Of a DNA stretch of 64,000 nt, positions 33,762 through 62,300 are shown piece by piece. A program made the position numbers and the translations under genes. The notes below the pieces were generated by a model. The model did no database searches, was not told the origin of the DNA, and saw nothing but the letters and a program-made list of their open reading frames with translations. Numbering within the stretch: position 1 is the stretch's first letter; each line of letters begins with the position of its first letter. The DNA comes from Enchytraeus crypticus (taxonomy: Eukaryota; Annelida; Clitellata; Enchytraeida; Enchytraeidae), in the NCBI GenBank assembly GCA_905160935.1, contig CAJHZI010000208.1, positions 1,565,501 to 1,629,500 on the forward strand, in the 5' to 3' direction.

Positions 33762-33970
33762 CAAAAAATTATATGTTATGCACAATACAATGTGGAAAGT
33801 TTGATACTGGCAGATAGGCTGTTCAATTGTAAATAACAGGGAAAATACTGTAGGTTTGTAACTTACGTTTCAAAGTGTTGACGTCATTTGCCGTGACGTC
33901 ATCAAAATGTGCGTAAACAGAAAACTGCCGCAACAGTGCAGTAAATAAACGGCGTATCACTGATTAGGCA

Positions 33971-35035
33971 ATGGCAACATTAAACGAAGCGCAAATTAGA
34001 GCACAAGCTATTACACTATTGGAAGAAAAGTATAGTTATGGCGTTATAGCAAAAAAACTAGGTCGTAGTAAAGCGTGGATTAGCAAGTGGGCCAACCGCT
34101 ACAAGCAGAATCCAAACGAAACGCTGCAGAGTCGTTATCAAGGCGGTCGAAAGTCTGTGCTGACTGCTGCCGCTCAAAAACTGATTAGGCAGTCTAAATA
34201 TGTGCGTGGACAGAGTCTGCGAAAGTTAGCACGTCGATTGAAAGACAAACGCTTTGCTGGATGCAAAGAGACAATAAGACAGTATATGCGAACGACGCTG
34301 AAATGGAAATGCTTTAAACGACAAAAGGTCCCAAAGTTAAGTAGTGCTTATAAAGTCCGCCGAGTCAACTTTGCGAAGAAGTTTAAAGATATTGACTGGT
34401 CGCGTGTCATGTTCACTGATGAATCACCTTTCAAACTTTACTACGTACCTAACAATAAGAACGATGTAGTATGGGGATCACAAGAAACTTCTGTTCCGTG
34501 CGCGCCACAGGTGAAGTTCAGCCCGTCAGTTCTGGTGTGGGGTGGTATTACAGCTCGCGGATTAACAAAACTTCATATCATCCCAAATAAAACTTCAGTT
34601 AATTCGACTTATTACATCAATGAGATACTGGAGAAAGAGGTCAAACCAGCATTCCAGCGAACAGTTGTATGTACGAATTTAACAGCTACAAAGCTGTTTC
34701 GTAATAACGGCGAAGGATTGTTTCAACAAGACGGTGCACGTGCACACACATCAAGAGCGTCAGTCGAGTGGTTGAACACAAACATTAATGGATATATCTC
34801 ACCAGAGGACTGGCCACCTAATTCTCCGGATTTGTCACCGATAGAAAATGTTTGGAGTATTATGGCGGCAACGGTTTATGCCGATCCTGAACCGCAGACA
34901 TTGAACAGCTTGAAACGCCGGATTCGAAAGGCGTGGAAATCGATACCTCTGAAAACTCTGACAAATCTAATTGGCTCGATGCATGATCGACTTGACGCTG
35001 TACTGAAGAATAAAGGAGACATTATTAAATACTAA
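33971..35035 (+). CDS. Tc1/mariner (IS630 superfamily) transposase, DD37E
   Basis: The 354-residue protein is full length for the family and lacks stops or frameshifts. Residues 1-60 form a helix-turn-helix (EKYSYGVIAKKLGRSKAWIS), followed by a GGR motif (58-60) comparable to the GRPR hook of Tc1 proteins and a second DNA-binding region to about 120. The catalytic triad is D150 (MFTDES), D254 (FQQDGARAHTS) and E292 (SPDLSPIENVW). Exactly 37 residues separate D254 from E292, so this is DD37E rather than the usual DD34E of Tc1 or DD34D of mariner. It cuts and pastes the element at TA sites in the nucleus. DD37E groups I recall by name are the mosquito ITmD37E, TRT and L18; I cannot say which is closest. 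Confidence 0.92.
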   Translation: MATLNEAQIRAQAITLLEEKYSYGVIAKKLGRSKAWISKWANRYKQNPNETLQSRYQGGRKSVLTAAAQKLIRQSKYVRGQSLRKLARRLKDKRFAGCKETIRQYMRTTLKWKCFKRQKVPKLSSAYKVRRVNFAKKFKDIDWSRVMFTDESPFKLYYVPNNKNDVVWGSQETSVPCAPQVKFSPSVLVWGGITARGLTKLHIIPNKTSVNSTYYINEILEKEVKPAFQRTVVCTNLTATKLFRNNGEGLFQQDGARAHTSRASVEWLNTNINGYISPEDWPPNSPDLSPIENVWSIMAATVYADPEPQTLNSLKRRIRKAWKSIPLKTLTNLIGSMHDRLDAVLKNKGDIIKY

Positions 35036-42190: not shown

Positions 42191-45052
42191 TACCGGAAGC
42201 AGTAAATATCTGCTTAATTTCACAGACACAGTTAGCCAATCAAAACCTATAAGAAGCGAATTTTAAGTATTGAACAGGTTGTAAGTATTGACTAGTAGAG
42301 TATTAGAGTGTATTAGTCAATGTTAAATCTTTGAGCCATCGATGTCAAATTCAAATTTTTAACTTTTACGGATATCAACAGTGAATTTGGATTACTGAAG
42401 ATTTTAAAGTTAGCAAAGCGACAGTCAATATAATTGGCATCTTGACTGGTACGCTGACTCTATTCGTGTTTTAAGTCTGTCTAATAGATTGAAAACATGC
42501 AAGCAGGAGCGCAAATGACGATACACAGAATTCCAAAAATCGGCATCCCAGTTTAAAAAGAGCTTTTAGCCTAAGAACGTTGAAATTTCTAGATTACAAC
42601 TTCTTTTATCATCTAATGTTCAAATATGGTTGAAAACTGCTGAGCTAGTCATATGATACGTCTAAAGTGGAGATAGAGATAGGCTTACTCACAGACACAC
42701 AATAGAACTTTGCTGAGCTATAAAGGCTGGTAATTAGAAGCGCAACAGAGACACAGTCTGTCATTCAATGGCAACGAACAACGCAACAGCAACTTCTGTT
42801 GCTAATAGGTTTAAGATACGAACAACTGTAACACAGAACTAAGTAGCAACTCTAAAGTATATAAACCAGCGTTTAATTATATCTTACAGTAGAAGCTAAG
42901 TTCACATACGATTATTAGATTACAGCTAAAGTCATTTTACGATTAACTATGTCATAGATAATGCAAATGGTGAGTCATAGGTTATGAACTTTTTACGCAA
43001 TATCTGAAGATATCATCGGATGAACTATAATAAGGTAACCCAGAGCGATTGTGATTAACCTTCTGAACGTTTATAAAAGGTAAGTTGATATTTTCTTACA
43101 GAATTTCTAATATTATTACTCCAAAGTATTACTAGTGGATTCTTCTACTATTAATTATTACAAAATTATTAATAATTAATTCTACTATTGCAAATTATTA
43201 ATAAATTATTACTAATAAAATCTGCTATTACTAATTATGACTAAATTATTACTGATCGATAATAATATTAGTTGCCATTTCTAAATTATTTGTAATAAAT
43301 GCTAATAAAATTAGTTATTAGTAAATTATTACAAATAAATACTGGTATTAATAACTATTTATATATTATTATTTATAAATTCTGCAGAGCTGGACCCTCT
43401 GAATTTCTTGTGCATCAAACGTTTTCTGTGGTATTAGTTATGTAATTTATATTTATTTAGCATAAATGAATCACTTTGTAAAGAGGCTTTTATAAATATA
43501 TGACTTGGACCAGGTATTTGGAATAAGATAACGTTTATATGAAAGTTTGACATTAAACGTATGTGTGTACATACTGTGTCGTTTATAACCCTGCCGATTT
43601 GCCAATACCAAGTAAAAGTTCACATTCAAATGGCGTGATTTTATTTAAATATTTTTCAGATGAATCATTAATAGCCGTGGTTCAAATCGCTTAATGCTAT
43701 CATGATTACTTGCAGTTATCAGTAATTGAGAATGCAATTATTCTGGCCACCTGGTGAACTACTGACGTTCCATTCATGATTTAAGAACTGATGTCGTTAT
43801 AGAGAAGGTACTTACATGTATGTTAAAGTATGCGGCACTTCATAAATGCAATAGAGCGGCAGCTGAAATAAACCAAACGTATACTTAGCTTGAAATTAAA
43901 GGAGACTAAGAAAGAAATAATGAATACAATAAAAACCAATTTATAGGATCCTTTTCAAACTGACGACTATAGGCTATTCCCTTATATATCCAGCGATATC
44001 ATATACATGTGTATCCAGCGATTGCGACAGCTGTAGTCACTCGAAACTTCTGAAAGTTTTTGAAAATATGAAATTCCCATGACATAATTGCTTAGGCTTG
44101 ATAATTCCTATGCCATGTAATTGTTGCCTGCATGTGCACATATGTAATATAATATTCTAAGCTTAGTTCCTATCCGGCGACACAACTTCAAAACGCGATT
44201 AAAAAATGTTTACATTTAACACAAGTTCTTTATTTTTCTCAATGCTCTAAACTGTACATATAATTGACGTTATTATATACTCTACATGTAGCTCTGCATA
44301 GCTAAGCTTATGTCATCAAAATGATTATAATGAAATGATGATATGATTGCTCTTTATTTGTCATAACTATGACTTATTTAAAGGTTTGTAGGGCTTACTT
44401 CAAGTAGAATTTTCTTCATCAACATTTTATCCGCATGTTCCTTTATATTTTAAATTCAAAATACTGTATTTTCTGCTGCTAGACTACTATAGAACGTGCT
44501 TAATCAATGCTGATATCAGGCTGGTTCAGAATTGCCATGTTTTGTTGACTAATACAAAGTTTCTGGATGTATCGGTTAAAGTAAGAAAATAAACGACGCC
44601 CAAAATTGACATAGACAGTTTATACTGTACATGAATATATTGAGCAGTGTGAATCTGGGATATTTTGAGAAGAGTTTCGAAAGAAGTAAATCTAGAGTGG
44701 AGGGGCTATTTATTTACTTCTCTAAACTTTTGGAGTTTCGATGTAAAGTATACGTTTAAAGAAGGGGGTAATTTATCCTTATCATCTCCTAATGCACATC
44801 TGTACAGAAATACAATAGTCATGCGCTCTACTTGGTAAATAGTTATACAGTGTTACTTTGAGGAAGTTTAACAATCGCATGGGTGTAATTTAATATTATA
44901 CTTTTATGTTCAGATCAAATGAACTGCGATTCACGATGAAAAGCTATCGGAATGCATTGGTAGCGAGCACACTCTATTAAAGTGACATTACAGTATCTGC
45001 TAAAAGTAAAGACAGTATTACTACTGTAACAATCTGTATAAAAGGAGAGATA

Positions 45053-45754
45053 ATGATCCGCTATTTGAGTGTGTCACTCTCAAATTTCTGTTCGATTTCT
45101 CGACAGACCTCGCTAAGTATCGGAAAGGAATTCCAGAACCTGTCCAAGAATTACTTGCCAAATCTCTGTGATGAAAATCCATGCAGTCGCGGGAGAGTTC
45201 CAAGTTCGGACTCCTGCAAATCCGCAGAATTCTACTGTTCCAGTCAGCCGAAGTATCATCGAAATCTCAATATGACTTCAGACGACGATAATTCTTACAG
45301 AACGCAATCAGTCTTAGAAGTGAGTCCTCCTGTACAGCAAACCTCTAAGTCATTTTCCTGTTCTCATTCTAAGCAATCGCCCCAGTTTCTGAAGTCTTGC
45401 GCCTGTAACCGACACCAGGACCCCAGTCTTGAATCTAAAGTATTTCATCATTCCCGGTCTGATGCAAAAACAACGTGTGTAAATCATCTCCATACGGATC
45501 ACCCTCGGTGTCGGCCCTGTGTCAGACAGGCAGTCCTTGCGGTCCTTGTTTTTGTTATCCTGTTAACATTGATCAGAGAGGGGCATGCAAATCCAAGTTC
45601 CGGTCTCCAGCATCATGAAAGAAATGTCAAGAATTCAGCTGGAATGGATTTTGGAAACATGCAGATTGGAGAAAGGAAGTGGTCAGAAGGAAGGCGGGAT
45701 AGACGAATTGGAGAACATCACGAGTTCAAAGTGGATAACTGGAAGGATGCTCAG
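45053..45754 (+). CDS. MMP exon 1: N-terminal extension and hydrophobic segment
   Basis: The exon opens at ATG 45053 and ends at the donor cag|GTAGGT (45755), phase 0. The encoded 234 residues hold several cysteines and one hydrophobic stretch about 160 residues from the N terminus, followed by GHANPSSG and a charged region. If the first Met is used, this would be a type II signal anchor as in vertebrate MMP23. An internal Met at residue 74 (MTSDDDNSYRT) would give a shorter version. The start choice is uncertain because no transcript is available. Confidence 0.7.
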
Positions 45755-48700
45755 GTAGGTTTAATCAAGTTTAGCGTTTTTGAATGTCTTAATATCGTAA
45801 GGTTAACGTCATGAAGCTTTAAATGACAGATCCTGTGGTGAATCGAACTCTCGTGGGTTTGAATCCCAGCGGCGCTGATCTGAGGGTAAAATCTCAGATA
45901 TTCACAGGACTACACGAATAATGGATTAAATTGCCTAACGGTTTAAACATGCGGTATTAGAAGTGATACATAACAACATAGTTGATCATTTCACTATTAT
46001 GCGTGTTTCCTTTTTTGTAGGCTAATTTTCATGTTACTAAATGGGTTTCTCGATATATTTATTTCAGTGCGTATATATTTTATATCTTTATATAATACTA
46101 AATACCATGACCGAGTAGGTTTAGCTGTGCTATTTGATCTTCAGGAGTCATGCATTCGAATGTTAGCCTGATCCGCTGCATCACTGTCCATTTAGTACCA
46201 AAATTGACATAAAATTTAGCTATTATACTTTGATAGAAGGGATAGAGACTTGAAAATAATATTGGATTAATTGTTAAAAGCAGAATCATTAGAATAAGAG
46301 GTAGTAAACTGTGAAGATAATTGCTTCCCTATTCGGTGTATTCAATAGCTGAATGACGCCAATTTTTGTAATTTTAATTTATTTTTATATAACGCCGAAC
46401 GTAGATTGGTCACTAATGCCTACAGTATTTTTTCACCGATCAGAGTATTTTTACGAATAGTATTAAAAGTTGGAAAATAGTGTCTACTGTAGAATTATGT
46501 TAAGAATGCAAACTGTGTACAAAACAAGACAGCGCATGTAGTGCATTTAAACTGTAGTGTAAAGCGCATTAGATAGGCGCAGTAATGGCTTCAAATGTCA
46601 CAATATACAATTCACTAAATAACATATTAATCTCCGGCAGTTATCACTTCATGCTTAAAGTTATTCTAAATTTTTACTTTGATCTGCTGCTTAAATCCGC
46701 AATTTAAGTTTAGCGGAGAATTTTTCTAGTATATACTCACTATCATGTCTTATCTTTCTCTCTCTCACTCTAATTATTATGTTCCTATTCCTATCTATAG
46801 TATATTCCTGTTTATAACTAAAGAAGATAACTAAGAATAATGGAAACGCAGGACAAGTGTTTGTTTCAGGATATTACTGAAGAATCATCAGTGCAGTGAT
46901 AATTCTTAGAAACACTTGTTTATCGGTACACGGAGTTCTTTAGATGTTAATGTAATACATAGATATTGAGTGTTATTAGACAGAAGAATGGTATACGTGT
47001 GATCAAAAAAGTCAAATAGTAATATAAGTTTGCGCATAATTAAAAGCCTCAAAATTTCATTAATTTCATCCCTTAACTATGCTTACTATACTATGCTATA
47101 CTATACTATACTATACTATGCTATACTATGCTATGATATATTTGTTTTCAAATATATTTTTAACTGGGGCATATTTAACAATTATGTATCATTACATATC
47201 TTAATCAGCTCATATTTTTTTAATTTTGCCTATTTCATAACAAAGTAGTGCCTCTCTTTCATATTGACCTTGAATCGGGAAGTAGTCCCTACTGCATTGT
47301 ATACTAAATATTACAAACACAGGATTACCTGAGAAAATACGGATACCTGAATTGCTCGGATCCTCTCAGAAGAACTTCGGATTCATCAGAATTCTCCCTC
47401 ACCAGGACTCTCAACGGCTTAGTCCAGGAGGGGGCCCACGTTTCCGGTCGAGGTACTATAGGACACTCTGACTCCGGGGTTCAGACTCATCCATTCTGCA
47501 CTATGGAGTTAGTCCAAGCTGCCATCCGAACCCTCCAGGATAGGTTCCATCTAGAGCCTACTGGCAGGTTAGTCTATAGCTATAGCGATTAAGAATAATA
47601 ATAACAATAGTAAAAATAATAACACACATTATAGTGAATGATCTGATACTGGCAGGTTAGTCAATGGATATATTGATTAACCACCGACTAATCTTATTTT
47701 ATTTAATCGCTTTAAAAAGCAAAGCTAATGTTAACGTCAGTTTCCTCACTCGAATGCGATGTCAGAGACGGGCGAGCCCAGATTTGAACCCTCACATACT
47801 GATCCGCGGTCGAATATCTAACCGACATCGCCACTGGTTCCCGCCAATATGCAGTGTGGTATAAATATATTGATCAACCAATTAATATGTTACAGGTTGA
47901 GTACGTAGCTTGATCATTTTGGTGTCCGACTGTAAATCAGCAGGTTTAGAATTCAAATATGGTGCTCTCCGCGTCAGTCATAAGATTTGAGAAGGAATAT
48001 GAAGTTAAACGTTATTAAAGTAGATGAACGAGTGAATTAGCTATATGAATGCACTTTTGCTCACTGACAGTTTACCTGTAAGTTATGTTGCTTGTTTAAA
48101 TTTAAATTAACGTCAGCAGTTATCACATGAAATATTGCCGCGTCATAAAGTACATGTATACAATGTTATGATTATTATTCTTCAGTCCTTATTAAAAATA
48201 TAATGTTAGAGCGGCGAATATTAAATTTGTTTCGAGTAATTCTCTAGTATGATATACTGTGAATTTCAGTATATAGTAGATATGTAAGCTTTGTAGGGCA
48301 ATGGTAGAACCTTTGCTTCTAGAACTAGAGGCCGTGAGGTCATCACACTGCTCTGTAACAAAGGTTTCCTCTTTCAGATGGGCTAAATAGAGGTAATTAT
48401 CAACATTTGGTAGTGTCAAAGCTAAAAGCAAAATGCTTAGCTTAACGCCAGTTTCCTACTCGAATATAAAACAGTTACGAGGATAGCACTGGATTTGAAC
48501 CCCAAGCCTACTGATCCGCTATCGAACAACTTTATCCAACAAGCCACCGGCTCAGCCCAGTTATCATTTTACCTGACAGGAAGAAAGATAGCTACTTATA
48601 AGATCTTTCGGAACGACTTCATAAAATGGGATAAAACTTCACGTTAAAAGGAAGATTTTTATTTAAGTAATTCATATTGTTGGTATATTAATAGGCTCGA

Positions 48701-51342
48701 CAGTGCTACCAAGCTTACGATGAACAAAGGGCGATGTGGTAACACTGATGCTGAAACTAAAGTAATAACGACGGCGAAAATCCGAAGAACTCCAGGAAAC
48801 TTCGATCCAATGGAAAAATCATTAGCTAATAGTAAAAACATCGGTCCCAGATTCCACCGCTCTCAGCCGCATCAACATCTAAAACCAATGATAGAGGACA
48901 CGTCGGTGAAAAACGCGTGGGAGTTATACGATACATCTGGAGGTGGAAAATGGAATAAAAAGTTCGTAAGAGATTTAAAAATCAATGAAAAGTCGTCAAG
49001 ACATCATGAAAGAATGGCTACATTGACAAATCTTATCATTCCTCCACCATCGTCGTCATCATCATCATCGTCGTCATCATCGTATGGACATCAGAATCAC
49101 CTCAACAACTCGGAAGATCGGAGGCAAAGAATAAAGGCAAAAAAGAGGTTGACTCCGCATTTTGAAAGATTATCTGCGATGCAAAAAAGATCAAGAAATA
49201 AGCGATATTTAAAAAGGAAATTTAAATCCTTGAGAGGATCAAATGCTTCAAACCCAAAACAACAAAAATCTTCATCAGCTGATAAATTTCTAGAACCCGT
49301 AGAGTCACTGAATGATGATGTCGTATCCTCAGCTCCTGCATTCCAACCGGATATGGATAGGAGAAAGAAAATGTTGGAAGAGCTGACGGATATGAGATGG
49401 AGAGAAGAAATGAAGAGTGAGAGAAGGAGACAGAGTCGCCTTGCACGACATCAGCGTAGACTGAGGAGGAGAAGATTAGTTCCAGGATTGGATGAGGACG
49501 AGGAGGAGCGGAAAGATTCCAGTTACTCCAAAGCTGTAACTGAGAGGTTGAGACAAAGAAGAAAGCGATCCATTGTGTTCGATGGGGTTAGTATTTTATT
49601 AAGCTAATGCTTTGAAACTCAGCAAATAAAGCTGCAAAATTAATTTTATTAATTTAGTTAATCAATCAATAGTCAATAAGAATTTAACGTCCGGTTCCTC
49701 GCTATAAGGCAAAGTCAGGGACGTCTCTTGCAGACTCTACACAAACAGGCGCCAAAGCACCACACGATGACGACTGAGTACACAGAGACCACAAGAGAAA
49801 GCGAGATCAAAACAGTGCAAGTCCAAGATCCAAGGCTCTCTCTCTCTTAGTGCACTGCCTACTGGCAGGTCCATGGTACATAACGCCTCCACTCTTCTCT
49901 GTCTTCCGCCTTCCTCTTCATTTCCACATATGAGTGGGTCTTTAAATCATCTAACATACCTAATCTCGGCCTGCCCCTGCCTCTTTTTCCTTCCATTCTA
50001 CCTTCTATGACCTCTTTTAATAAACCTTCCCCCCTTAGAATGTGTCCTATCCATCTCTTCTTCCTATTTCTTAATACATTTATCAACTGTCTATCTGTGC
50101 CAACTCTCTCCAGGACTTCCTCATTTGTAACCTTTTGAGTCCAGCTAATCCTCTCCATTCTTCTCCAAATCCACATTTCCAATGCCTCCAGTTTCCTAAT
50201 ATCTTCCTTTCTTAAGGTCCATGTTTCACATCCATATAATAGCGTGGTCCAAACCAAAGTTTTCACTATCTTTGTCTTTGTGTCTTTCTTTAGCCTTTTT
50301 GTTAATAGTTCTTTTCGACTACCAAAGGCCGCTTTTGCTTGTGCAATCCTACTGCATATTTCCGTCTCAAATTTCCCATCTTCGGTTATAGTATGACCCA
50401 AATATTCGAAACTCCTTACCTGTTCCAATTTCGTACCATTTATTGTGATATTAACTTCACCTTTATTATTGGACACTCTCATAACCTTGGTCTTTTAATA
50501 TTAATCTTCATGCCATATCTTAGGGCCGTATCATTCAGCCTATCCATTATCTTCAGCAATTCAATCTCGCTGCCCGCTACCATTCCTTGGTCATCTGCAA
50601 ATCGTACATCTTGTAACAAATTCTCTCCTACTTTTATTCCTTCTTCCAAGTCTTCCATGGCTTCCTCCATCATTGCCTCAGCGTAAATGTTAAACAGCAG
50701 CGGCGAAATGCTACAACCTTGTCTTACCCCACGTCCTATTTGATCCAAGGCAAGCGGGTCAAAATTTAGACCTATGTCGGAAAGAGATTGGTTTTTAGCT
50801 TGCCAAGGATGGTACCGATAGAATTACAGGATCGAAGATTTTGTGGCAGAGAGTTCCATATTGTCGAAGCAGAAAACATGAAGGAGCGTCTGCCCATGGC
50901 AGATTTAATATTTGGTACATTGGGAAGGTTTTTACTTTAGGAACGAAGACTACGAGAGGGTTGATAGATTGATAAAACATCAGATAGATAGGATGGTTTA
51001 TCATAATTTAAACTTTTAAAGGTTAAGGAAGCTATCTTGAATTTTATACGTTCGGATACTGGTAGCCAGTACAGTTTCTTAAGAAGAGAAGAGGTGTGGG
51101 ATTTGAGTATTTTTATAGACGACTCGAGAAAGCGTATTAACCTTTAAATAGGTTATATATTCATGTGTATATATATATATTGTATATATATAATATTTTT
51201 TCTTTTTAATTGCCCTGGGCTGTAAAGGGCCATGGGCTAAAAAATAAGATAAAAGAGACTTTATTTAATTAAAAGTTTTAAAAAGAATTATTATTATTAT
51301 TATTATTATTACTATTATCATTATCATTATCATTGTCATTAA

Positions 51343-51375
<33 letters not shown>

Positions 51376-51658
51376 AATTATTATTATTATCATATTATCA
51401 TTATTATTATTATTATTACTATGCATCAGAACGAAAGGCCGGTGGACCTTCCTGGCACCAGTTTCTCCAGGGATAAGAGAGAACAGCTGCGATGGAGACT
51501 TCTGGACGAAGGATACAGTCACAAGATTCCACTAGCAGAACAGAAAGCCGCCCTGGAGCTCGCATTCCGCATGTGGAGTGAGGTCATCCCACTTAAATTT
51601 GCTGAAGATTATTCTGGAGACATCAAGGATGTGGATATTGTTATAGCCTTCGCTAAAG
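45053..51658 (+). CDS. Matrix metalloproteinase (MMP, M10A-like), first four exons, 3' partial
   Basis: Joining 45053-45754, 47323-47567, 48695-49586 and 51430-51658 gives 689 codons plus one base, with all phases matching. Domains in order: a polar, Cys-containing N-terminal region (residues 1-155); a hydrophobic segment 159-174 (QAVLAVLVFVILLTLI), possibly a signal anchor or late signal peptide; a propeptide beginning DYLRKYGYL (235 on) and ending FHLEPTGRLDSATKLTMNKG; a cysteine switch GRCGNTD (Cys330); a basic, Ser-rich insert of about 277 residues; a furin site RQRRKR|S (cut after 607); and the catalytic domain start with the LRWRLLDEGYSHKI and ALELAFRMWSEVIPLKFAE signatures. MMPs are zinc endopeptidases that cut extracellular matrix. 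The HExxHxxGxxH exon is not in the window. The Cys switch differs from the usual PRCGxPD. Confidence 0.88.
46107..46180 (+). mobile_element. tRNA-like fragment in MMP intron 1
   Basis: It holds CATGACCGAGTAGGTTTAGC followed by GCATTCGAATGTTAGCC, a degraded A and B box pair. Confidence 0.35.
47085..47136. repeat. (ACTAT)n tract
   Basis: About ten ACTAT/GCTAT pentamers in MMP intron 1. Confidence 0.88.
47323..47567 (+). CDS. MMP exon 2: propeptide
   Basis: The acceptor aaacacag ends at 47322 and the donor GTTAGT begins at 47568. DYLRKYGYL is the classic first helix of an MMP prodomain, and ELVQAAIRTLQDRFHLEPTG is the later helix. Between them is an insertion of about 45 residues (Ser/Thr/Gly-rich) that is longer than usual. 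It ends in phase 2 (AG), completed by G to give Arg. Confidence 0.88.
47716..47846 (-). mobile_element. tRNA-headed SINE copy in MMP intron 2
   Basis: It has the tail gttaacgtcagtttcctc, then gacgggcgagcccag, then the head gaccgacatcgccactgg in reverse order. It is well preserved. Confidence 0.82.
48422..48560 (-). mobile_element. tRNA-headed SINE copy in MMP intron 2
   Basis: It has the tail taacgccagtttcctac, then ggatttgaaccccaagcc (a B box in reverse), then ccaccggctc. It is more diverged than the copy 600 bp upstream. Confidence 0.75.
48695..49586 (+). CDS. MMP exon 3: cysteine switch, long insert, furin site
   Basis: The acceptor attaatag ends at 48694 and the donor GTTAGT begins at 49587. 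It starts LDSATKLTMNKGRCGNTD, with the switch Cys codon at 48735-48737. It then encodes a basic, low-complexity region with a run of serines (about 49045-49085) and many Arg/Lys clusters, ending RLRQRRKRSIVFDG. The furin-type site occupies 49557-49568. In typical MMPs the switch and the furin site are only tens of residues apart. Confidence 0.85.
49837..50741 (-). mobile_element. LINE fragment (RTE-like reverse transcriptase), nested insertion
   Basis: It is flanked by a 10-bp duplication GATCCAAGGC (49827-49836 and 50742-50751), and the host LINE resumes exactly on either side. On the minus strand it encodes IGRGVRQGCSISPLLFNIYA, the polymerase motif FADDQGMVAGSE, then YGCETWT, then GKRGRGRPRLGMLDDLKTH. 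It ends in a short (GA)n tail (49837-49848, plus-strand tctctctctctt). It is 5' truncated within the reverse transcriptase domain. The clade assignment is from the motif style only. Confidence 0.85.
49859..50741 (-). pseudogene. Reverse transcriptase C-terminal region with a frameshift
   Basis: Two open frames (50479-50748 and 49859-50482) join at about 50485, where GMKINIK should continue into KTKVMRVSNN. One A appears lost from a run of As. The first frame covers motifs around the second catalytic Asp pair (FADD), and the second covers the thumb and C-terminal tail. The copy is dead on arrival because of 5' truncation and now also because of the frameshift. Confidence 0.8.
51283..51420. repeat. 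(ATT)n/(AAT)n microsatellite abutting an MMP acceptor
   Basis: TTA repeats, then (AAT)n, then (TTA)n again end at 51420, ten bases before the exon start at 51430. The (AAT)n and (TTA)n parts could pair as a hairpin. Confidence 0.9.
51430..51658 (+). CDS. MMP exon 4: start of catalytic domain
   Basis: The acceptor atgcatcag ends at 51429 and the donor GTAGGC begins at 51659. The peptide reads NERPVDLPGTSFSRDK, then LRWRLLDEGYSHKI, then LELAFRMWSEVIPLKFAE, then DVDIVIAFAKG. These match the first helix and strands of an MMP catalytic domain. The exon ends in phase 1. The acceptor sits directly behind a (TTA)n microsatellite. Confidence 0.88.
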
Positions 51659-51761
51659 GTAGGCTAAGTTACTGTTTTCTTGTAACTTTACACGTATGGC
51701 TTCAAAATTATGATTAATGTTTTTTCTTTAATACTCGCTGTTAATAGATTATCCCTAGGAT

Positions 51762-51870
51762 CGTGATTGGCTGAGTCGGTGGCTTAAGCGTTTAATCTTT
51801 CGATTGCTGGAGCTCGAGGTACGTGGTTCAAATTCGGAGTTCACAGATAGATATGTAGAAGCATGAAAGT
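51762..51870 (+). mobile_element. tRNA-like SINE fragment
   Basis: It holds GGCTGAGTCGGTGGCTTAAG (A-box-like) and GTGGTTCAAATTCGGAGT (B-box-like). The family tail is not clear. Confidence 0.5.
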
Positions 51871-52702
51871 TACGCTAAATTTGTCTTCAATCTTAGTTTT
51901 TAAAATTTTCCGCAATATGAAGTTCTCGAACTTTCCTCTACTCGGCGGGTCATCGTTCAATAGTGCAGTTGTCAGTTTTTATTTTCAGTATTATATGCGC
52001 AATTGTTAAGAATGAATTAAATCTAAGTTGTCCCTGAAGTTCTCGTTTGGCCAGGGTAGCTCTTAGAATCATAGATGGGAATAGTTTCGTAAACGTTTGA
52101 CTTATGGAATTGATAATAATAAGCTGAGTATTAAAGAAATTATTTCCGGCATACTGAATCCAAGGGAATTCCGTAATTGTAAAAGATTTTTTTTAAATGT
52201 TACCTACAAAAATAACCTTCTCGTCATGTTATAACTTAAAATTCAGTGTAACATTACTCTTTTCTAGTTTATATACACAACATGTTGACGAATTTGTCGT
52301 GCTGCACTGACAATGATAGTTGTTATTCGAAATTTACAAAATCGAGACGGGATGACAGTGTGTTTATTTCTGAAATATGCGAAGAATTCCACACTTGTAA
52401 TTGTTGAACTACGATTAGATATTCGCAGGCCGCTATTTTAAGTCGTTAGTCATCACTTAAGATTAAAATTTTAATATCGCGCTGCGTTGATGTCGAAAAA
52501 TCTATCAGTACGCTATTGGCATGAGTCGATTGGAATAATGACGTAATCCGTTTCTTTAAAATTTCTCTCTTGCGTAGTGTGTGTATTTAACAGTAAGTGA
52601 GACTTTTTCTCTGACATTTTAGCAAAATAGCAGGTTCAAAGTATATATTTAAAATAGCAATCTGCGATTTTAAATATATCGTCCAAGCTCTCCAAAGATC
52701 AT

Positions 52703-53020
52703 TCCATTGATATCATGGATGATTCCATTGATATCATTGATAATTCCATTGATATCATTAATCATTCCATTGATAACAGTGATCCTTCCTTTGATATAAT
52801 TGATGATTCCATCGATTTCATTAATCATTCCATTGATAACAGTGATCCTTCCTTTGATATAATTGATGATTCCATTGATATCATTAATCATTCCATTGAT
52901 AACAGTGATCCTTCCTTTGATATAATTGATGATTCCATTGATACCATAAATCATTCCATTGATAACGGTGATCCTTCCTTTGATATAATTGATGATTCCA
53001 TTGATATCATTAAGCCTTCG
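52703..53020. repeat. 63-bp minisatellite with 21-residue open periodicity
   Basis: About five units of 63 bp, each holding gatgattccattgatatcat and aacagtgatccttcctttga. Because 63 is divisible by three, both strands keep open frames (SIDIINHSIDNSDPSFDIID on plus). No splice sites or start context support coding. Confidence 0.88.
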
Positions 53021-53283
53021 ATCGACATTCCATTAGATCTTACTTTATACTTAATGTAGCCTCTGACTTGGAAAAATATAACTTCTCGTTGCCTTCTTCA
53101 GTGTCTGTTTAACCCTCTTGCGACACGCAAAGTTTACGTCTAATTTATTCTGTTTTGATCGGGATTAAACATGAACTACGGTTGCAATGCTCGTTAATAT
53201 GAGGATATACTAATACAGCAGCTAAGTAATTAAATACATCATAAATAAACTATTATAGCATTTATACATCAATTCGGATGACA

Positions 53284-53394
53284 GAAATTATAGCGCATTT
53301 ATTGAGTCGCTTGCTAATAATAATAATAATCATAATAATCATAATAATAATAATAATAATAAAATAATAAAATAATAATAATAAAATTAATATT
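53284..53394. repeat. (AAT)n tract
   Basis: Interrupted aataat repeats next to the candidate minus-strand exon. Confidence 0.9.
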
Positions 53395-53401
53395 TTGAAA
53401 G

Positions 53402-53794
53402 TTAAACGTTGCTGACCGCAGCAGCGGGTGACATTGCCCAGAATCCACTGCTTTTGGCTCCAGCAGAGCCCCTCCCCTCTTCCTCTATTATCGATCCACC
53501 ACGACGATGACTCCTCTGAATAGATGTTGATGAGGCAGTTGTGAGAACTCTGTTGAGAGAACCGCATTTAGAAGTCAACGACCCTGAAATCTGAATAGCT
53601 GTTCCTAGAGAATTGTGGGAACGAGTATCCGCTTGATTAGGTCTCTGATTTGTAAAACCCGATGAGCTCTGCCTCTGCGCCTCAGCCTGCCCTGAGGCCA
53701 ACATCTGGTTCAGCCTTTGACACTGGTGCTGTGGCCCTGGTGAGAGGGACCCCTGGGAGGCAGTGACCATTCTAGCCTCGAGTATCTTCTTTTT
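53402..53794 (-). CDS. Candidate minus-strand exon, Ser/Gln/Gly-rich, unknown
   Basis: A GC-richer open frame on the minus strand follows a possible acceptor (tgaccatcagctag) and reads KKKILEARMVTASQGSLSPG to SAGAKSSGFWAMSPAAAVSN before a stop at 53402. It is polar and low in complexity, with no recognised domain. It lies downstream of the PTP-like exon on the same strand, but its phase (0) does not follow directly from that exon (phase 2). It could be a real terminal exon or chance. Confidence 0.25.
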   Translation of the reverse strand, partial: KKKILEARMVTASQGSLSPGPQHQCQRLNQMLASGQAEAQRQSSSGFTNQRPNQADTRSHNSLGTAIQISGSLTSKCGSLNRVLTTASSTSIQRSHRRGGSIIEEEGRGSAGAKSSGFWAMSPAAAVSNV

Positions 53795-54056
53795 CTAGCT
53801 GATGGTCAGTGCAGAAAACTCTTGTGGACATATCTCAGGCTCTATGGACGCACTCGAGGAGGAGGAGGGGGGTATTGAGAGGCAACGAATTTACCGTTTT
53901 ACGAATTTTATCTGGATTAAAAATTTTAATAATTAAACATTAGTCATTTACGAATTTTTCGTTTTCAACGAAATTCGTAAATGGCTGGTGTTCTCGCAGT
54001 GGATGTTCTCGCAGCTGGTATTCTCGCAGGTCATGTCCCACAGTGAGTCAGTTCAC

Positions 54057-54161
54057 CGGGGCACGCCCCTGTCAGGCCACGCCGTGTAGTGCAGCTGCAC
54101 TATGTCACGCTGTTGTTGTTGTTGCTCGCCTGTCTTACCAGGTCCGTACACTCTCAGACAT
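54057..54161 (-). CDS. Protein-tyrosine-phosphatase-like exon (antisense, isolated)
   Basis: On the minus strand, after the acceptor tatcgtgag, the frame reads CLRVYGPGKTGEQQQQQRD, then IVQLHYTAWPDRGVP, and ends at the donor GTGAAC. HYTAWPDxGVP is the WPD-loop signature of classical PTP catalytic domains, which dephosphorylate phosphotyrosine. A short Gln run sits before it. The exon carrying the HCSAGxGRTG active site was not found nearby on the minus strand. It may be one exon of a large minus-strand gene or a stray copy. Confidence 0.55.
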
Positions 54162-54197
54162 CTCACGATAATAATGATAATAATAATAATAATAGTA

Positions 54198-54239
<42 letters not shown>

Positions 54240-54243
<4 letters not shown>

Positions 54244-54430
54244 CAATTAGAGTGATACAGTGATAAATGACAACATCGAGCACTATTGAAACAAAATCAA
54301 GCCGGTGAGCAAAAAGAAGTTCCAAAAACGGTGCAAATTCCAAAATCCAGAAAACCAGTCCAAAGTTATAGTTAGAGAAGAAGCATACACTGTAGGCACA
54401 TGTTGCGCCTCCAAAATCCCGGATCAGCAG
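54240..54430 (+). repeat. Dispersed repeat family C, copy 2
   Basis: It holds agagtgatacagtgataaat, then acaacatcgagcactattg, then aaaacggtgcaaattcc, then aaatcccggatcagcagagg. It is flanked by (AAT)n next to the PTP-like exon. Confidence 0.6.
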
Positions 54431-55619
54431 AGGCAAACCGAAAAACTGCTCTTTTGCAAAATATTGAAATATGGCGAAAGAAATATTTAATTGTAACTTG
54501 ATCGAACCCGGCAGAATGTTCTGCTGAATATTTGAATAAACGATTTCAATAGTTACGACTGTTTGACGCAACACTAAATTTGATTTTTTACCAGATGGCT
54601 TTAAGCTATTGATCCGTTAAATTCCATCATGGTGTAGTAATGGACTGGAGTATTTGCTTCCAATTATATCAATCATATTTGCATTTGGATATGCTAGTAT
54701 AATGCAATATAATATTTCCTGAAGAATATTCTATTAACTCATACGAAATGCTATCAAGCTATTGATTTGTTTCTTAGTAAAAGCTTATTTCTGATTTACA
54801 GTTCCTTTTGAGTACTTAAAGTTAACAAAAACTGGTACTTTAGTTTAATAATTAAAATATTGCGCTTCTCTGAGATATCCAATTTTGTCGATGTATAAAA
54901 CTCTTCAACGCAGGCCATGGCGGATTAATATAACCTCCAGTCAATGTAGAATCTATGAATTCCACTCCATTCTCGAATGACGTCAGGACATGGAATAACT
55001 TCCACAATGCATTCCATTCGATTCGTTTACTTTAAAGCTGACGATGGTGTTTCTAAACACCTTCGACGAATTGTCTCCACCTCCCGATCAGACGTTTCAT
55101 TCACAAATTTCGGCAAGTTGTAGCAGTAGGACTTTCAGCAGTACACACTGGATATGGAGATGATGTTTACGTAGCTTCTCATATATGTTGATAACGAAAG
55201 GTAAACATTACATTTGAGACTCTCTCATCTCTACCAAGAAATTTGTCTTTCCTCTAACATTTTCATTTTACTTTTCACCAAGTCATATTATAACCGAATT
55301 AGATGTACTAGCTGAATAGAAATTGAGTGCTACGGTTACTCGTACGTTGAAATAGTACGCTCTTTAATTTGACTTTTCTTAAAAATGTTTAGTATGAAAA
55401 ACCTAAAAACGTAGCTATGATAAATGTCGTGTTTAGCAATTCAGATACTATTATTTTCAGATACAATTATGACATAAATTAGTAACGACTGGAAGTTTAA
55501 ATTCTCCAATATATGTTGCTTCTACTGCCCATAAAAATAATCACTATCTAAAACATTCAGTAGTAAAACTATTTATTATTTTAAATTATGTACTAATTGC
55601 ATTGTGCACCTAGAGCTGT

Positions 55620-55875
55620 CATGAAGTAATATTTCCATTAGTCATAATCTTCATCACTGAATCATCATGACCGTCATCATCCAATTATAATCTTCATCAC
55701 GTAATCATGACCTTCATCATCTAATCATAATCTTCGTCACCTAATCATGACTGTCATCATCTAATCATAATATTCATCACCTAATCATGACTGTCATCAT
55801 CTAATCATAATCTTCATCACCTAATCATGACTGTCATCATCTAATCTTCATCACCTAATCATGACCTTCATCGAG
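55620..55875. repeat. About 40-bp minisatellite (CATCACCTAATCATGAC)
   Basis: Six units alternating tcataatcttcatcacctaa and tcatgactgtcatcatctaa. Confidence 0.88.
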
Positions 55876-57599
55876 TGTAAGTTCTACACCAGGCATGCAA
55901 CCTTTGAGAACTGCATGACCTTCACCTAATATTTATATGATCTTCATGGGTATATTAAATATGAACGGTTCTTTATGTAGTATGTAATGCAATATATAAG
56001 TGAATACACTATTGTGAAAATGTAGGCTAAGAATTTGAATTATTTAAGAACTTCTACGAAAGTCGAAATTCGACTAACCATTTCATATCGTCAACTGTGT
56101 ATTTTGTATTCAATAGACATTTAGATAAAACTGACAGCCTTATTATAGAAAGCAACCTTTGACATCTCCATTATGCAATAGTATCTGATTAGGTGCAGGC
56201 GCTCTAGATTGCACTTGTTGATATCTGACATTTAGCTTTAGCTCGTCCACAAGAATTCTTCTGTGTGGACTGTGTAGGATTGTGATAGTTTTGCATTTCA
56301 TGACGATGCACTTGTTACGATGCATCCATATCGCTAACTTTAAATTATTGAATTGTCACATGCTTCTATAAAAAATGTAACTTGGATTGGATAAATCAAT
56401 CATCAATCAATGAAAATTTTAAGTCATCCAAAACTTAAATTCTGTACTTTTAAATGGTGAGCTAAGCCTTACTTAGCCATAAAATTGGTTGATCAATATT
56501 TGAAATTTTCGCGAATATCAGGCTTAACCTTTAAGGGAACAACAGAAATTGAAACTGCTCAGTAATTTATGGTCAAAAATTGATTATTAAATATTATTTT
56601 ATGGATTATATAATCTCGAATTGTAAACGGTTTGCAGACCTACTTAGCATATTATGAAGTAAAAACGAACATAAATGTAAGATTTATTTTGTTAATTTCC
56701 TAAATAATTCTGGGTTTTAAGATGACAGAAATAACTAATCAAAAGCGTAAATTGACTAGTAGACCGCAGTGATAACATTTATGTTATTTATGGACAGTAT
56801 TGTGTCTACAGTATGATGGCAAATCATATCAATGGAAAACTTTAATGTCTAATTTACTCTAGGGATCGTCTACTATTATTATTGTAACAATATGTTGGTT
56901 TATTGTAGTTATACTTGATATAGGCTTAAAAAGACTTGAGCAGTAAATGTAGGATGAATCAGTCATAAAATAAGTTGATTGTTTTACCAGTAATAACTCT
57001 GTCTCAGTGTTTGTAAAGTACCTACAAGGACACACTTGCATAGTGTAGTTTTTAGTTTTTATGACACTAGTGTCCTCAAATCAGGAAGGCGGAGTAAATA
57101 TAGACGGTACGACGCTTGACATAGCCCATACTGATTGCTTTTAATATGCCTATCGATGGATACGTTCTGTTTATTTTACAGGGCGAGAATCACGAGTAAC
57201 ACTTGATACCTTATCTCATACAGTAGATTAACTTTAAAAATCGCCGGCTTCAGGATGTGTTTAATATCAAGTAAATTATAATTCGCATCATGTGAAAACA
57301 TTCAGCAAAATATTTTGCAGAATGATCAGACCATCTCGGATTCAATTTTGTTACGAGCCATTTTTCATAATGCTTACATTAAATAACTTGCGTTAACTGC
57401 ACTACCAATTTCATATGAATTTAGTCCGCTGCAGAATCGGTCTAATGTATCATTCACTTGTCCTAAAACGCAATTATGAGGTTGCTGATTATTAGGTTGC
57501 TGATGAAGCAAATCCGAAACTACTTCAGACGTCATATTTTCCACCCAAGCTGAATCTTAATATTGCTTAATCCTTATCATAATCATAGGTTGCTAGGAT

Positions 57600-57842
57600 T
57601 TGGTATGGTTAGGGTTAAGGTTAGTGACAGGAATAATAGATGGCAAAAGATGCAAGGGTCGACAGCGGATGACGTCTATTAAGAGTTTTAACAAATGGTT
57701 GCAGTTAACTGAAACAGAGATGATCAGAGCAACAATGAACAGAGATATATGGAGGAATATAACCATGACCGCCCAGACTTGGAACAGGCACGGCACTCAG
57801 AGAATAAGAAGGATTAAGGTAAGGGTTAGAGTCTGGATGATA
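57600..57842 (+). pseudogene. LINE C-terminal remnant
   Basis: The frame reads GKRCKGRQRMTSIKSFNKWL, then MNRDIWRNITMTAQTWNRHG T. The G(K/R)xxGRxRMT...DxxWR...RHGT layout is the usual C-terminal tail of endonuclease-reverse transcriptase LINEs. It is preceded by ggttagggttaaggtta repeats and lacks upstream domains. Confidence 0.6.
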
Positions 57843-57926
57843 TAATGATAATGAGACTGGATGATATAATCGGAATAATCGATGTTTTACTGGATAAGAA
57901 GCTCGAAAGTGAGATATGAGTGCTCT

Positions 57927-58163
57927 TCATAACGATCTGAATCTATGCGTAGGAATACGTGCACCTTTATCTGTTAGAACACAAGAGCCTGTTTTAATGT
58001 CACGACCCTGAACGCCTACGCAGATCTTGTGGAAATTAATGTCTCCCAGGCAGTGGTCTAGAAGACAAGATGGACTAAATTTAGACCTCATCGATTCGAA
58101 TGATTTGATTAAGCATTCGAGAGGTTTATGATTCAATATAGCTGCGCTATTGTTGGTCTCCAC
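57927..58163 (-). other. Unassigned minus-strand open frame, 78 codons
   Basis: The frame reads NNSAAILNHKPLECLIKSFE, then SCLLDHCLGDINFHKICVGV. It is of mixed composition, not a simple repeat, and I do not recognise it. It lies next to the LINE remnant at 57.6-57.8 kb but on the other strand. It could be an old mobile-element or gene fragment. Confidence 0.2.
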
Positions 58164-58912
58164 CAGATGGTGATTATGTGACGGTCATATTTGTAGAGAC
58201 CGTTCTAACCGTCCATCAAATACTGCTTCTGTTTAACTACGTGCCAATTTATGAGTCTAATGAAGCGTTAGATAGGCTATTTCTAGCCAAATATCGTGAC
58301 TGTGCATTTTGATTGAAGTCATATTTCTCAATATATAAAAATCTCAATTTAATCATAATGATTATGGTCTTGATGATTTTTAACTTGAGAAATTATCAAT
58401 GGCAAAGTGTAATATTTTACGTCGACTTGTACTGATGAGGGCAGAGAAAAATCACTCCAAAATCACATTTGTAAAGCTAACTGAATACTATTGGATTTAA
58501 AACAGCATCTTCTTGAGCCGATTTAATAATGAAGAAGTTATTCTGTTAAACATTAAATTTATTGAAAGACGCTTAATTTTCAATGTCTAACGTTTAGAGA
58601 TCAGTAGTACTTTATGCCTTGCGCTGTCGTTTACAATTTACATGCGAGAGGTATAAAAACAATTTTCTATGTTGGTACTTAAAATATGATTAATAAATTT
58701 TAGATTATCGCACACTTTATAGCTTAAAACCATGAAGCATTTAATGCGACTGACATTGATCTATAGATCGGCATCTAGAATTTATATCATTCGGGTCAAA
58801 TCAATTTGGCCTACCAAATCTCAACCTGCAAAGATCAGCAAGAACATCTTCATCGGATGTGGCCTTTGCTATATAAAATTTATCGTTTGCCAGTTTCGAG
58901 AAGTCAGCGACT

Positions 58913-58978
58913 TATCAATCAATCAATCAATAAGAATTTAACGTCCGGTTCCTCGTCATAAGGCAATGTCAGGGACGT
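58913..58978 (-). mobile_element. LINE 3' tail only, about 65 bp
   Basis: Only the (ATCA)n end and the terminal unit (tttaacgtccggttcctcg, caatgtcagggacgt) are present. It is an extreme 5' truncation of the same LINE. Confidence 0.75.
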
Positions 58979-60409
58979 AAAATCTGAAGTTATGATTCAT
59001 ATTTAATCTATACGAAATTGTGTGCTAATTATTGTTAAGGTGACATAATTTCTTTTAAGAAACTTTATCACATAATTAAACAGCAGTTTACTTTATCTGC
59101 ACTAGAAACAAGTTCTACTCATTTCAGGTGTTAAATTTTCACTAAGGTTATATTTTGTGTTTGCCATAACTGACTTTGAAGGTAACGGAATAGATAAGAT
59201 TAGAGGTCACAAGGACCTACTAAAGATTAAAGAAAATAGCAAGAACTTCAATAGCAGGATTGTTAGGTATAAGAATTGAACTACTTTTCAGGCAGATATA
59301 GGAGTGAGTTCGGACAACTTAGCATTATGAATTCTAAAAATCCTCGCATTTTATTTTATTAGAAGCTGTCTGGAATTCCAATGCCTCAATGACTTGGGAC
59401 TTGATAACTAACGAGCTGATGGAGTGCCTCACCGGTTTTGATTTGTCTCAGTAGTACTGGATGTAGTCATGGATGACAGTAGCACTCACATTTTGTTAAT
59501 ATCTCAAACAACACAGCTTAAGCTTACATCTTACATTTGTGTACAAAATTATACACGTTTGAAGCATTGTAATGTTCGTAATGCTGTTGAACAACAATTA
59601 GGCCTACTTCTTGTAATTTTAATTATCTTGAATAATTCTGTGGTAAATTTGCATGCAAATCACAAACAAATTGAATTTAGATTGCCTATACCGGGCTGCA
59701 TTAGAGACATAGATCACGATTTAGACGCCGTTAAATTTCTCGTATGTATTGTCTAAATTATACGCGGAAGTCCCGTTTGTTCGAATGAAGTGATAAATCA
59801 AAGCCTGGAGCGGAGAAGGATGCGGGAGGGATGAATGAATGGAATGTTTGGAAAGCTTTGTGTCTATTCCAGATCATTCCGTTTCCAATTGCACCAGCAT
59901 CATTACGCTTAACGTATTGTACGCATCAACCCCTCGCAAAACTTCTGTTCAACCCACCTTAATCTTATTTCTACAGCGTTCTGATATTTCGCATATTTTA
60001 TCGACGTCTATTCAAGTAATTAACGTGTTTGTTTAAATATATTTATAAAAATAACGTTATAAAATATAGCGTTGCAGTAACGGGGAAAATACACTGTTTT
60101 TATGTTAGAATTTAACATAATACTGAAATAATGATATTACCCGTTTTGTGTCAGAGAAACTACAGACTAGATTAACCGTATACTGTGCTTGTTGTAAGAG
60201 GAGATCAAGTAGGAACTGAATAAGGAAATAGAAATCATCTCAGAAGAAATGTTTTTGAATCGAAAACTCTACCAAAATATTTGATAATGGCTGTGCCATA
60301 GTGATCGGATTAATATTTTTGTTTTATGGAGTGATCTCACTGTAAGTAACGTGATGTCAGATGGAGTAGGAATTTGCACTTTGCTCCTGCCATTAATCAG
60401 ATAACTTGA

Positions 60410-60500
60410 GTGAGAGTGAGAGAGAGAGAGTGTGTGAGAGAGAGTGAGAGAGAGAGTGTATGTGAGAGTGAGAGAGAGAGAGAGTGAGAGAGAGAGAGAT
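60410..60500. repeat. (GA)n tract
   Basis: Interrupted GAGAGTGAGA repeats. Confidence 0.92.
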
Positions 60501-60565
60501 AAAGAGGTAAGTAGACATAAATAATCAGTCTGAGTCTTATTGTGAAATACGACTCAATAATATTT

Positions 60566-60866
60566 AGGATGATGATAGATGATGATGATAGATGATGATG
60601 ATAGATGATGATGATAGTTGATGATGATGATAGATGATGATGATAGTTGATGATGATGTTGATGATGATGATGATAGATGATGATGATAGTTGATGATGA
60701 TGTTGATGATGATGATGATAGATGATGATGATGATGATGATAGATGATGATGATAGTTGATGATGATGTTGATGATGATGATGATAGATGATGATGATGA
60801 TGATGATATGATGATGATGATTGATGATGATGATGATGATAGATGATGATGATAGTTGATGATGAT

Positions 60867-60923
<57 letters not shown>

Positions 60924-61146
60924 TTGATGATGATAATTGATGATGATAATATGATGATGATGATGATATGATGATGATGATGATGATGATGATAGATGAT
61001 GATGATAGTTGATGATGATAGTTGATGATGATGATGATAGATGATGATGATGATAGATGATGATGATGATAGATGATGATGATAGTTGATGATGATAGTT
61101 GATGATGATGATGATAGATGATGATGATAGATGATGATGATAGTTG
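60566..61146. repeat. (GAT)n-derived compound array
   Basis: About 580 bp of GATGATGAT broken by atagat, agttgat, gttgat and atatgat units in changing order. It gives the longest simple array in the 3' third. Confidence 0.93.
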
Positions 61147-62144
61147 AAGATAATTTTGAAATATTTAAAATTATCTTACATATCTTACCTGTCTTATGAC
61201 TACATTTGACAGAAATATATTTTTAGTATATTTATGCTTCTGCTTTTTAATTTTTTTATTTCCTTAGCACGCGATAAATATTCCTAATCGTTAACATCCT
61301 ATGTCATGTTGTAGATATTCGTTGGTTTAAGTATAATCGTCTATTCAATTTAGCTTAACTCGTTGATGAGTGACCTGGAATTTAAACCCATGTCGCGTGA
61401 TTCTTAGTAGCCTAATTTATCAATGCGCTCTACTCTATCTGCACATGTGCACAATAATGAATCTACTTATTGAAGGTTTTTAAAATTGCCCAGAGGTTAA
61501 GTAAACTAAACTGTTTGCTTCATCAAATACGCAGCTTAAACTTTAGCTTTATATTCGAAGAAAATTGTACAAAAATATTTAGAATAAAATTTCTTTCGGA
61601 AAGTTTTTCTCTATATTTCTGCAACGGTAAAATTCACATTTCTAGAAAAAATTTACGTAATGCCTGACCTTGTAACAGTTTATAACTATGCTCGTGTGTT
61701 GGATGAACCTCCGGCACAAAAAGATTTTAAAAGTTGTTTAACATCTTCGAGAGAAGGTTAATTTTATCTTCACACTAGATACGACGTTAAGTTGCTCTTG
61801 AACTACACACCAAAGACGTCGACAGTCTTAGTTCTATTCAACTTTGCCCGATACCAGCCCATAAAGAACCAGGCCTATATGGTTCCAAAGGTCTGCTATC
61901 GCATATGCCTGGAAAATGCTGATTATTGTGGTCTTGTTTAAGTTTTTGCTTTATGAGTTTAACGTCTGTTTTCTTAACCGCACATGTCGTCAGAGAGGGA
62001 CCTAATTGAATTCACTGCTTCATGATTTAGATGGCTCCGTGAACAATTGTTTAACCAGGGTCGGGATACTAATAGACCTTGTCAAATACTCTCTGTACCA
62101 CACTAAATCAGCCGTCAATTCCCTAATTTTTCCATTCGTTTAAA

Positions 62145-62300
62145 ATTTGTAGAAATTTCTTGAGCCTAGGCTCTCACCAATCGAATGTTCTTTCTGACGT
62201 TAGATTAGATCTTAGTGCTTTGGTTGCCTTCTATGACACTTGAAGTAACCGGTCTATTCTTCAAACAACCAGGACATAACACGGGGATATGTGAATAACC
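62145..62300 (+). repeat. Dispersed repeat family B, copy 3
   Basis: It holds ctctcaccaatcgaatgttc, then cttagtgctttggttgcc, then accggtctattcttcaaac, then ggacataacacgggg. It is the closest relative of copy 2. Confidence 0.68.

Follow-up and report, generated by a model that had tools for sequence, protein, structure and literature searches.

A probable MMP21-type metalloproteinase gene in Enchytraeus crypticus with a very long basic linker between the cysteine switch and the furin-type site

The window analysed here is a stretch of 64,000 nucleotides from the annelid Enchytraeus crypticus (assembly GCA_905160935.1, contig CAJHZI010000208.1, positions 1,565,501–1,629,500 of the forward strand), in which positions are counted from the first letter. 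At 45053–51658, its plus strand carries the 5′ half of a matrix metalloproteinase (MMP) gene, which is incomplete in the window. Four GT-AG exons (45053–45754, 47323–47567, 48695–49586 and 51430–51658), separated by introns of 1568, 1127 and 1843 bp (introns 1–3, respectively), were joined in frame with cumulative phases of 0/2/0/1 and yielded 689 residues without a stop. The open frame, the consensus splice sites, the domains, the motifs and the composition given below are direct observations. An earlier note on this DNA had proposed the same gene model and coordinates and had called the product an MMP; the former was borne out by the four exons and their stop-free join, and the latter by Pfam matches to the prodomain and the M10 peptidase domain, both above the cut-off. 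The gene has the following features.

45053–45754, plus strand: exon 1, Met1 to Gln234, with an ATG in a frame open from 44981 and the donor CAG/GTAGGT; it encodes a Cys- and Ser-rich N-terminal extension (residues 1–158), the hydrophobic segment and the start of the prodomain (...VDNWKDAQ)
45530–45574, plus strand: hydrophobic core AVLAVLVFVILLTLI, residues 160–174, a candidate signal anchor or internal signal sequence
47323–47567, plus strand: exon 2, prodomain DYLRKYGYL ... LVQAAIRTLQDRFHLEPTG, with the donor CAG/GTTAGT in phase 2
48695–49586, plus strand: exon 3, 892 bp, open, phases 2 to 0; it encodes the end of the prodomain, the cysteine switch, the long linker, the furin-type site and SIVFDG
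48735–48749, plus strand: cysteine switch CGNTD (motif GRCGNTD, Cys330), aligned with the stromelysin-1 switch PRCGVPD
48750–49550, plus strand: linker, residues 335–601, 267 amino acids, basic and Ser-rich
49551–49568, plus strand: furin-type site RQRRKR, residues 602–607
51430–51658, plus strand: exon 4, spacer NERPVDLPGTSFSRDKR followed by the start of the M10 catalytic domain (LRWRLLDEG...LAFRMWSEVIPLKFAED...DIVIAFAKG)

PG_binding_1 (PF01471) matched residues 298–322 with 27.1 bits (cut-off 23), the last of these residues being encoded by exon 3, and this match together with GRCGNTD identified a prodomain of the matrix metalloproteinase family (M10A). Peptidase_M10 (PF00413) matched residues 630–688 of the joined protein with 25.5 bits (cut-off 24) and exon 4 alone with 31 bits, the latter match covering positions 4–57 of the 159 in the profile, that is, only its first third. 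The best-matching PDB sequences were stromelysins, MMP-9, collagenases and MMP-2, and for stromelysin-1 and -2 both the prodomain with the switch and the catalytic start were aligned.

From Cys330 to Arg607 the protein runs over 277 residues, and strictly between CGNTD and RQRRKR lie 267, with 13.1% Ser, 12.7% Arg and 10.1% Lys and with 61 Lys or Arg vs. 34 Asp or Glu. Both the positions and the composition agreed with the approximately 277 basic, Ser-rich residues of the earlier note, and its single uninterrupted exon with matching phases was also found (exon 3, as listed above). When the linker was shuffled 2000 times with dinucleotides preserved, every shuffle contained stops (mean 14.1, minimum 4), and neither half was readily kept open by chance (N-terminal half, 5/2000; C-terminal half, 0/2000). 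A chance open frame was rejected on this result, and by the measure of open-frame statistics the linker is coding sequence. The stop-to-stop frames around exons 3 and 1 spanned 319 and 277 codons, respectively, and across 60 whole-window shuffles no open run exceeded 177 codons; this whole-window control is lenient, and shuffling the linker alone gives the better one. In the real window, 10 open runs reached at least 170 codons; they comprise, among others, a transposase, part of a reverse transcriptase and simple repeats, the last including the minus-strand runs at 60400–61222 (203–255 codons). On the Uversky charge-hydropathy line, a crude predictor of disorder, the linker fell on the disordered side (−0.27), as did residues 175–234 (−0.29), and residues 235–334 (+0.03) and 608–689 (+0.10) fell on the ordered side.

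A peptidase or other domain within the linker was rejected, as exon 3 had only two Pfam matches, both below the cut-off and regarded as composition noise (a viral phosphoprotein, 14 bits, cut-off 25; DUF7648, 12.8 bits, cut-off 27). The proteolytic linker suggested in the earlier note thus found no peptidase family in Pfam on this exon, and the matrix-binding linker suggested with it gains plausibility from the net charge only. NCBIfam gave no families for exons 1, 3 and 4, a result of little weight from a library built for bacteria and archaea. Self-BLAST of 44001–52000 within the window (low complexity filtered) found 11 repeat matches, none of which touched an exon, and an origin of the linker from a mobile element was set aside (0/11 in the exon). 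Minimal R-X-[K/R]-R sites start at residues 215, 483, 571, 573, 602, 604 and 627, a motif that alone is weak evidence of cutting.

MMP21, first cloned in Xenopus laevis, was the closest to exon 4 among five MMPs compared. Exon 4 and the human MMP21 sequence used shared 30 of 72 aligned residues (score 134, z 27.3 over shuffles), followed by stromelysin-1 (20/54 identical; score 85, z 14.1) and by unvalidated segments of MMP14 (score 72, z 13.3), MMP23 (score 53, z 8.7) and MMP28 (score 52, z 8.2); these are pairwise scores without a tree, over approximately 75 residues and segments of differing length. The stretch LAFRMWSEV-PL-F-ED of exon 4 is common to MMP21. The human MMP21 sequence used (residues 1–327) agrees with all 17 variant positions up to 327 in the available parts of two published accounts (PMC11764533, PMC9484203). 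Global alignment of the prodomain with human MMP21 gave 22 identical residues of 71; owing to the insertion, it missed the pairing of DAQDYLRKYGY with human HAAQRFLSRYGW, which was made by eye only.

The exon borders pointed in the same direction. Human variants, as tabulated in the part of the article available, put codons 55–226 of MMP21 together in a single exon, bounded by an intron somewhere between codons 34 and 55 and by another after codon 226 (PMC11764533); the coordinate and cDNA differences for this block are both 514, and the row for c.281 is off by five bases, the remaining rows of the exon being consistent. Codon 244 (c.731) is placed in exon 3 in the portion seen of another report (PMC9484203). 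By eye, the border between exons 1 and 2 here lies at about human 54/55, and by alignment exon 4 ends at about human 233, so that both outer borders fall inside the human intron intervals, and two extra introns are present here inside the block that human MMP21 has in one exon.

In architecture, MMP21 resembles the present gene in its PG-binding-like prodomain, cysteine switch, switch-to-furin insertion and furin-type site, the last being represented here by RQRRKR at 602–607, between the prodomain and the catalytic domain. The present gene differs in its 158-residue extension before the hydrophobic segment and in its switch, which reads GRCGNTD. In the human MMP21 sequence used, the switch and RSRR are separated by 19 residues. 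A ‘relative long insertion (20~44 aa)’ between the switch and the furin site is given as a common feature of MMP21 in the available text of one study, the range being that of vertebrate sequences (PMC2656525); at the same place, the gene here has 267 amino acids. Judged from the predicted protein, the unusual part is the length of the linker, approximately six times the published upper value. Because MMP21 already has an insertion there, the linker would take a known trait to an extreme and would not occupy a new position. The statement in the earlier note that the switch and the furin site lie close together in described MMPs is therefore correct only in part, as it overlooks MMP21, with its insertion of 20–44 amino acids (PMC2656525); likewise, its interpretation stood as far as an MMP was concerned and was incomplete in naming no subfamily, MMP21 fitting exon 4 best of the five. 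Assignment to MMP21 is based on this best similarity, the matching exon borders, the switch-to-furin insertion and the furin site, and a furin-activated MMP gene of the MMP21 type, with the linker at its full length, is in our judgement probable.

Several points weigh against this assignment. Membership in MMP21 rests on approximately 75 residues and the architecture, and the comparison segments of MMP14, MMP23 and MMP28 were unvalidated. The switch GRCGNTD is degenerate at two positions relative to PRCGxPD, and for vertebrate MMP21 a signal peptide at the N terminus is predicted, according to the part of the source available (PMC2656525), whereas the segment here lies 160 residues in. The zinc motif, the Cys unique to MMP21 and the hemopexin repeats belong to exons that were not found in the window: HExGHxxGxxH had no match in the six frames of the window, six looser MMP patterns found nothing on the plus strand of 51659–64000, and exon 4 is without Cys, as is all of the predicted protein after residue 330. 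In the human MMP21 sequence used, a Cys comes right after the point matching the end of exon 4. A single scan of viral contigs for relatives of exon 4 gave 37 pattern matches and no relatives. The disorder measure was unspecific, since residues 175–234 and, barely, residues 1–158 (−0.06) also fell on the disordered side. Finally, the G+C content of exon 1 (0.40–0.48 in 200-base bins) exceeded that of three bins (600 bases) upstream (0.33–0.35), and intron 3 also reached 0.48, so the raised G+C content is not specific to exons.

The gene might instead belong to another MMP group that resembles MMP21, either the type II enzymes of the MMP23 kind or furin-activated MMPs specific to invertebrates. 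Like the present gene, MMP23 combines a furin-type site with an N-terminal hydrophobic segment whose charge balance is of the type II kind, and AFRMWS also occurs in the unvalidated MMP23 segment; in hydrophobicity and charge, the segment here appears compatible with the type II N-terminal transmembrane feature of MMP23. An N-terminal membrane segment together with a cysteine switch is also described for MMPs of the echinoderms P. miniata and S. purpuratus, which in the authors' view are no homologues of MMP23; the authors also urge caution on their transmembrane calls; the S. purpuratus enzyme is without a furin motif, and the available part of that paper mentions no long linker for these echinoderm MMPs (PMC8467561). 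Exon 4, however, scored 134 against MMP21 and 53 against MMP23, being far less similar to that MMP23 segment, and the cysteine switch, present here, is named in the same partial text as a difference from vertebrate MMP23 (PMC8467561). Membership in MMP23 was rejected on the presence of GRCGNTD and the similarity of exon 4, and a group other than MMP21 is regarded as unlikely overall. The length of the linker would be overestimated if part of exon 3 were removed, as an in-frame exitron or because the exon is mis-modelled. Among two donor-like and six pyrimidine-rich acceptor-like sites considered in exon 3, there are two in-frame GT-AG pairs (48966–49454, 489 nt; 49417–49533, 117 nt), and on an approximate donor table the modelled donor of exon 3 is the weakest of the four in the gene (2.3 vs. 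4.7–7.3). Yet the inner donors, at −1.6 and 1.0, scored lower than each of the four donors of the gene (2.3–7.3), the entire linker is open where 0/2000 shuffles were, and either excision would leave approximately 104 or 228 residues, still more than the reported 20–44. We therefore consider a shortened linker improbable. Decay of the gene or a chimaeric assembly, with later exons missing and the linker unconstrained, is more improbable still: it would be in keeping with the absence of the zinc motif from the window, the absence of the six looser MMP patterns from the plus strand of the 12.3 kb after exon 4 and the mobile-element sequence nearby, but the four exons keep their frames, splice sites and phases intact and contain no stop, and the remaining exons may sit past 64000 behind a long intron.

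The N-terminal segment raises a separate question, which concerns the topology and leaves the MMP21 identification untouched. The best 19-residue mean hydropathy was 2.59, at residues 156–174, and Arg occurs three times in the 15 residues before the hydrophobic segment and once in the 15 after, a charge balance that fits the type II-like segment of the earlier note. Dinucleotide shuffling of the 158 codons ahead of the segment gave only 1 stop-free sequence in 2000, and no in-frame Met occurs between residue 74 and the segment. On balance, we lean slightly towards an internal segment that stays as a type II anchor, as opposed to a cleaved signal or another start. Cleavage after REGHA is a serious rival to the anchor, only somewhat less probable: the segment would be a signal removed after a very long leader, or the protein would begin in an unseen upstream first exon, giving in either case a secreted MMP21-type enzyme. 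Following the segment, REGHA/NPSS has small residues at −1 and −3, in line with the rule for such sites, and 11 pyrimidine-rich AG sites in or just before exon 1 (44982–45754) would suit an upstream start. Moreover, the available parts of two papers describe vertebrate MMP21 as a secreted protein for which a signal peptide is predicted (PMC2656525, PMC9484203). Against a cleaved signal or an upstream start stand the open 158-residue extension (1/2000), the G+C content of exon 1 above that of the upstream bins and the lack of an in-frame Met from residue 74 to the segment.

Reports on other MMPs provide further precedents. The planarian SMED-MT-MMPA resembles the present gene in a predicted N-terminal anchor, a switch (87–93) and a furin site (114–120); in the available text, its anchor is at residues 1–21 and 20 residues separate the switch from the furin site (PMC3566077). 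‘Oja-mmp21’ was discarded as a comparison, its number being apparently a running one and not evidently that of an MMP21 orthologue in the part of the source at hand (PMC5237233). Literature on MMP21 in molluscs, bivalves and lophotrochozoans described no such linker among the matches listed, which were open-licence articles represented mostly by titles and the starts of abstracts. The separate features thus have precedents, and neither the length of the linker nor its combination with an internal hydrophobic segment that follows an extension of 158 residues has a precedent in the literature covered. Most likely, the gene is of the MMP21 type and carries an extreme version of the known MMP21 insertion and not a new kind of system.

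In furin-activated MMPs, latency is maintained via the switch cysteine and the propeptide is removed by furin, as set out in the available text of PMC2656525. For the present protein, we infer MMP21 orthology, topology, cleavage, release and polyanion binding as parts of one scheme. The protein would enter the secretory pathway via its internal hydrophobic segment, which would probably be kept as a type II anchor, and the prodomain would fold across the catalytic domain so that Cys330 sits on the zinc. A convertase of the furin type might then cut after RQRRKR (607), possibly also at other R-X-[K/R]-R sites in the linker. Given an MMP23-like segment and a furin-type site, one cut could both activate and release: cleavage at 607 would activate the enzyme and in the same step free the catalytic part from the anchored prodomain. 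Activation and release by a single cut have been proposed for MMP23. The 267-residue basic linker would most likely be an expanded, disordered version of the MMP21 insertion, serving as a convertase-accessible tether and perhaps sticking to polyanions.

A bolder version of this scheme, to which we give little credence, would make the insertion of a membrane-tethered MMP21 a functional module. The cationic linker would hold the latent enzyme on polyanionic glycans of the matrix or the ciliary surface, and staged convertase cuts at 483–486, 571–576, 602–607 and 627–630, the last just before the catalytic strand, would tune the timing and place of release. If true, a glycan-holding linker with staged cuts would be a localisation device without a description for MMPs in the literature covered.

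MMP21 sets left–right body asymmetry in vertebrates, and to our knowledge its substrate and site of action are still unclear. An MMP21-type enzyme of an invertebrate, bearing a huge linker where vertebrates have a short insertion, would reveal which part of the zymogen can vary and would serve as a natural test of the insertion's role. It also suggests that anyone looking for MMP21 in non-vertebrates should be prepared for long insertions and unusual switch motifs, on account of which such genes could be missed or mis-modelled. These points are of interest mainly to specialists in MMPs and left–right asymmetry; variants of MMP21 are associated with heterotaxy in people, according to the part of the article available (PMC11764533).

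Within and downstream of the MMP gene, further features were observed. In intron 3, the minus strand at 49859–50823 has two adjoining frames resembling a fragment of a LINE-type reverse transcriptase, one matching RVT_1 with 38 bits and the other without a Pfam match; this fragment is surrounded and interspersed by repeats that recur elsewhere in the window. Past exon 4, the plus strand of 51659–64000 runs for 12.3 kb without a recognisable MMP exon, as would be seen with a very long intron or a broken gene.

Rfam and tRNA scans of the whole window found nothing (0 and 0). Elsewhere on the plus strand, 13087–13233 and 14260–14379 matched successive parts of DUF7042 (profile positions 2–51 and 56–90; 28.7 and 30.7 bits, cut-off 27) and probably belong, as exons, to an uncharacterised gene upstream. 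The open reading frame at 16356 (CSYPDWLKGITWRDLSGEFVYSVDE) looks related to these stretches by eye and is without a Pfam match. A 272-codon open frame at 23338–24156 (plus strand), rich in Gln, Ser and Pro (HELLERQQQKKLQQKLRRQQQ), had no Pfam match above the cut-off and is perhaps an exon of that upstream gene. At 33968–35035 (plus strand), a 355-codon open transposase frame matched DDE_3 and HTH_23 above the cut-off; we take it to be of the Tc1/mariner type. The 133-codon open frame at 52658–53059 (plus strand) is a tandem repeat (DDSIDIINHSIDNSDPSF) whose other strand is also open for 120 codons, and it is probably repeat DNA.

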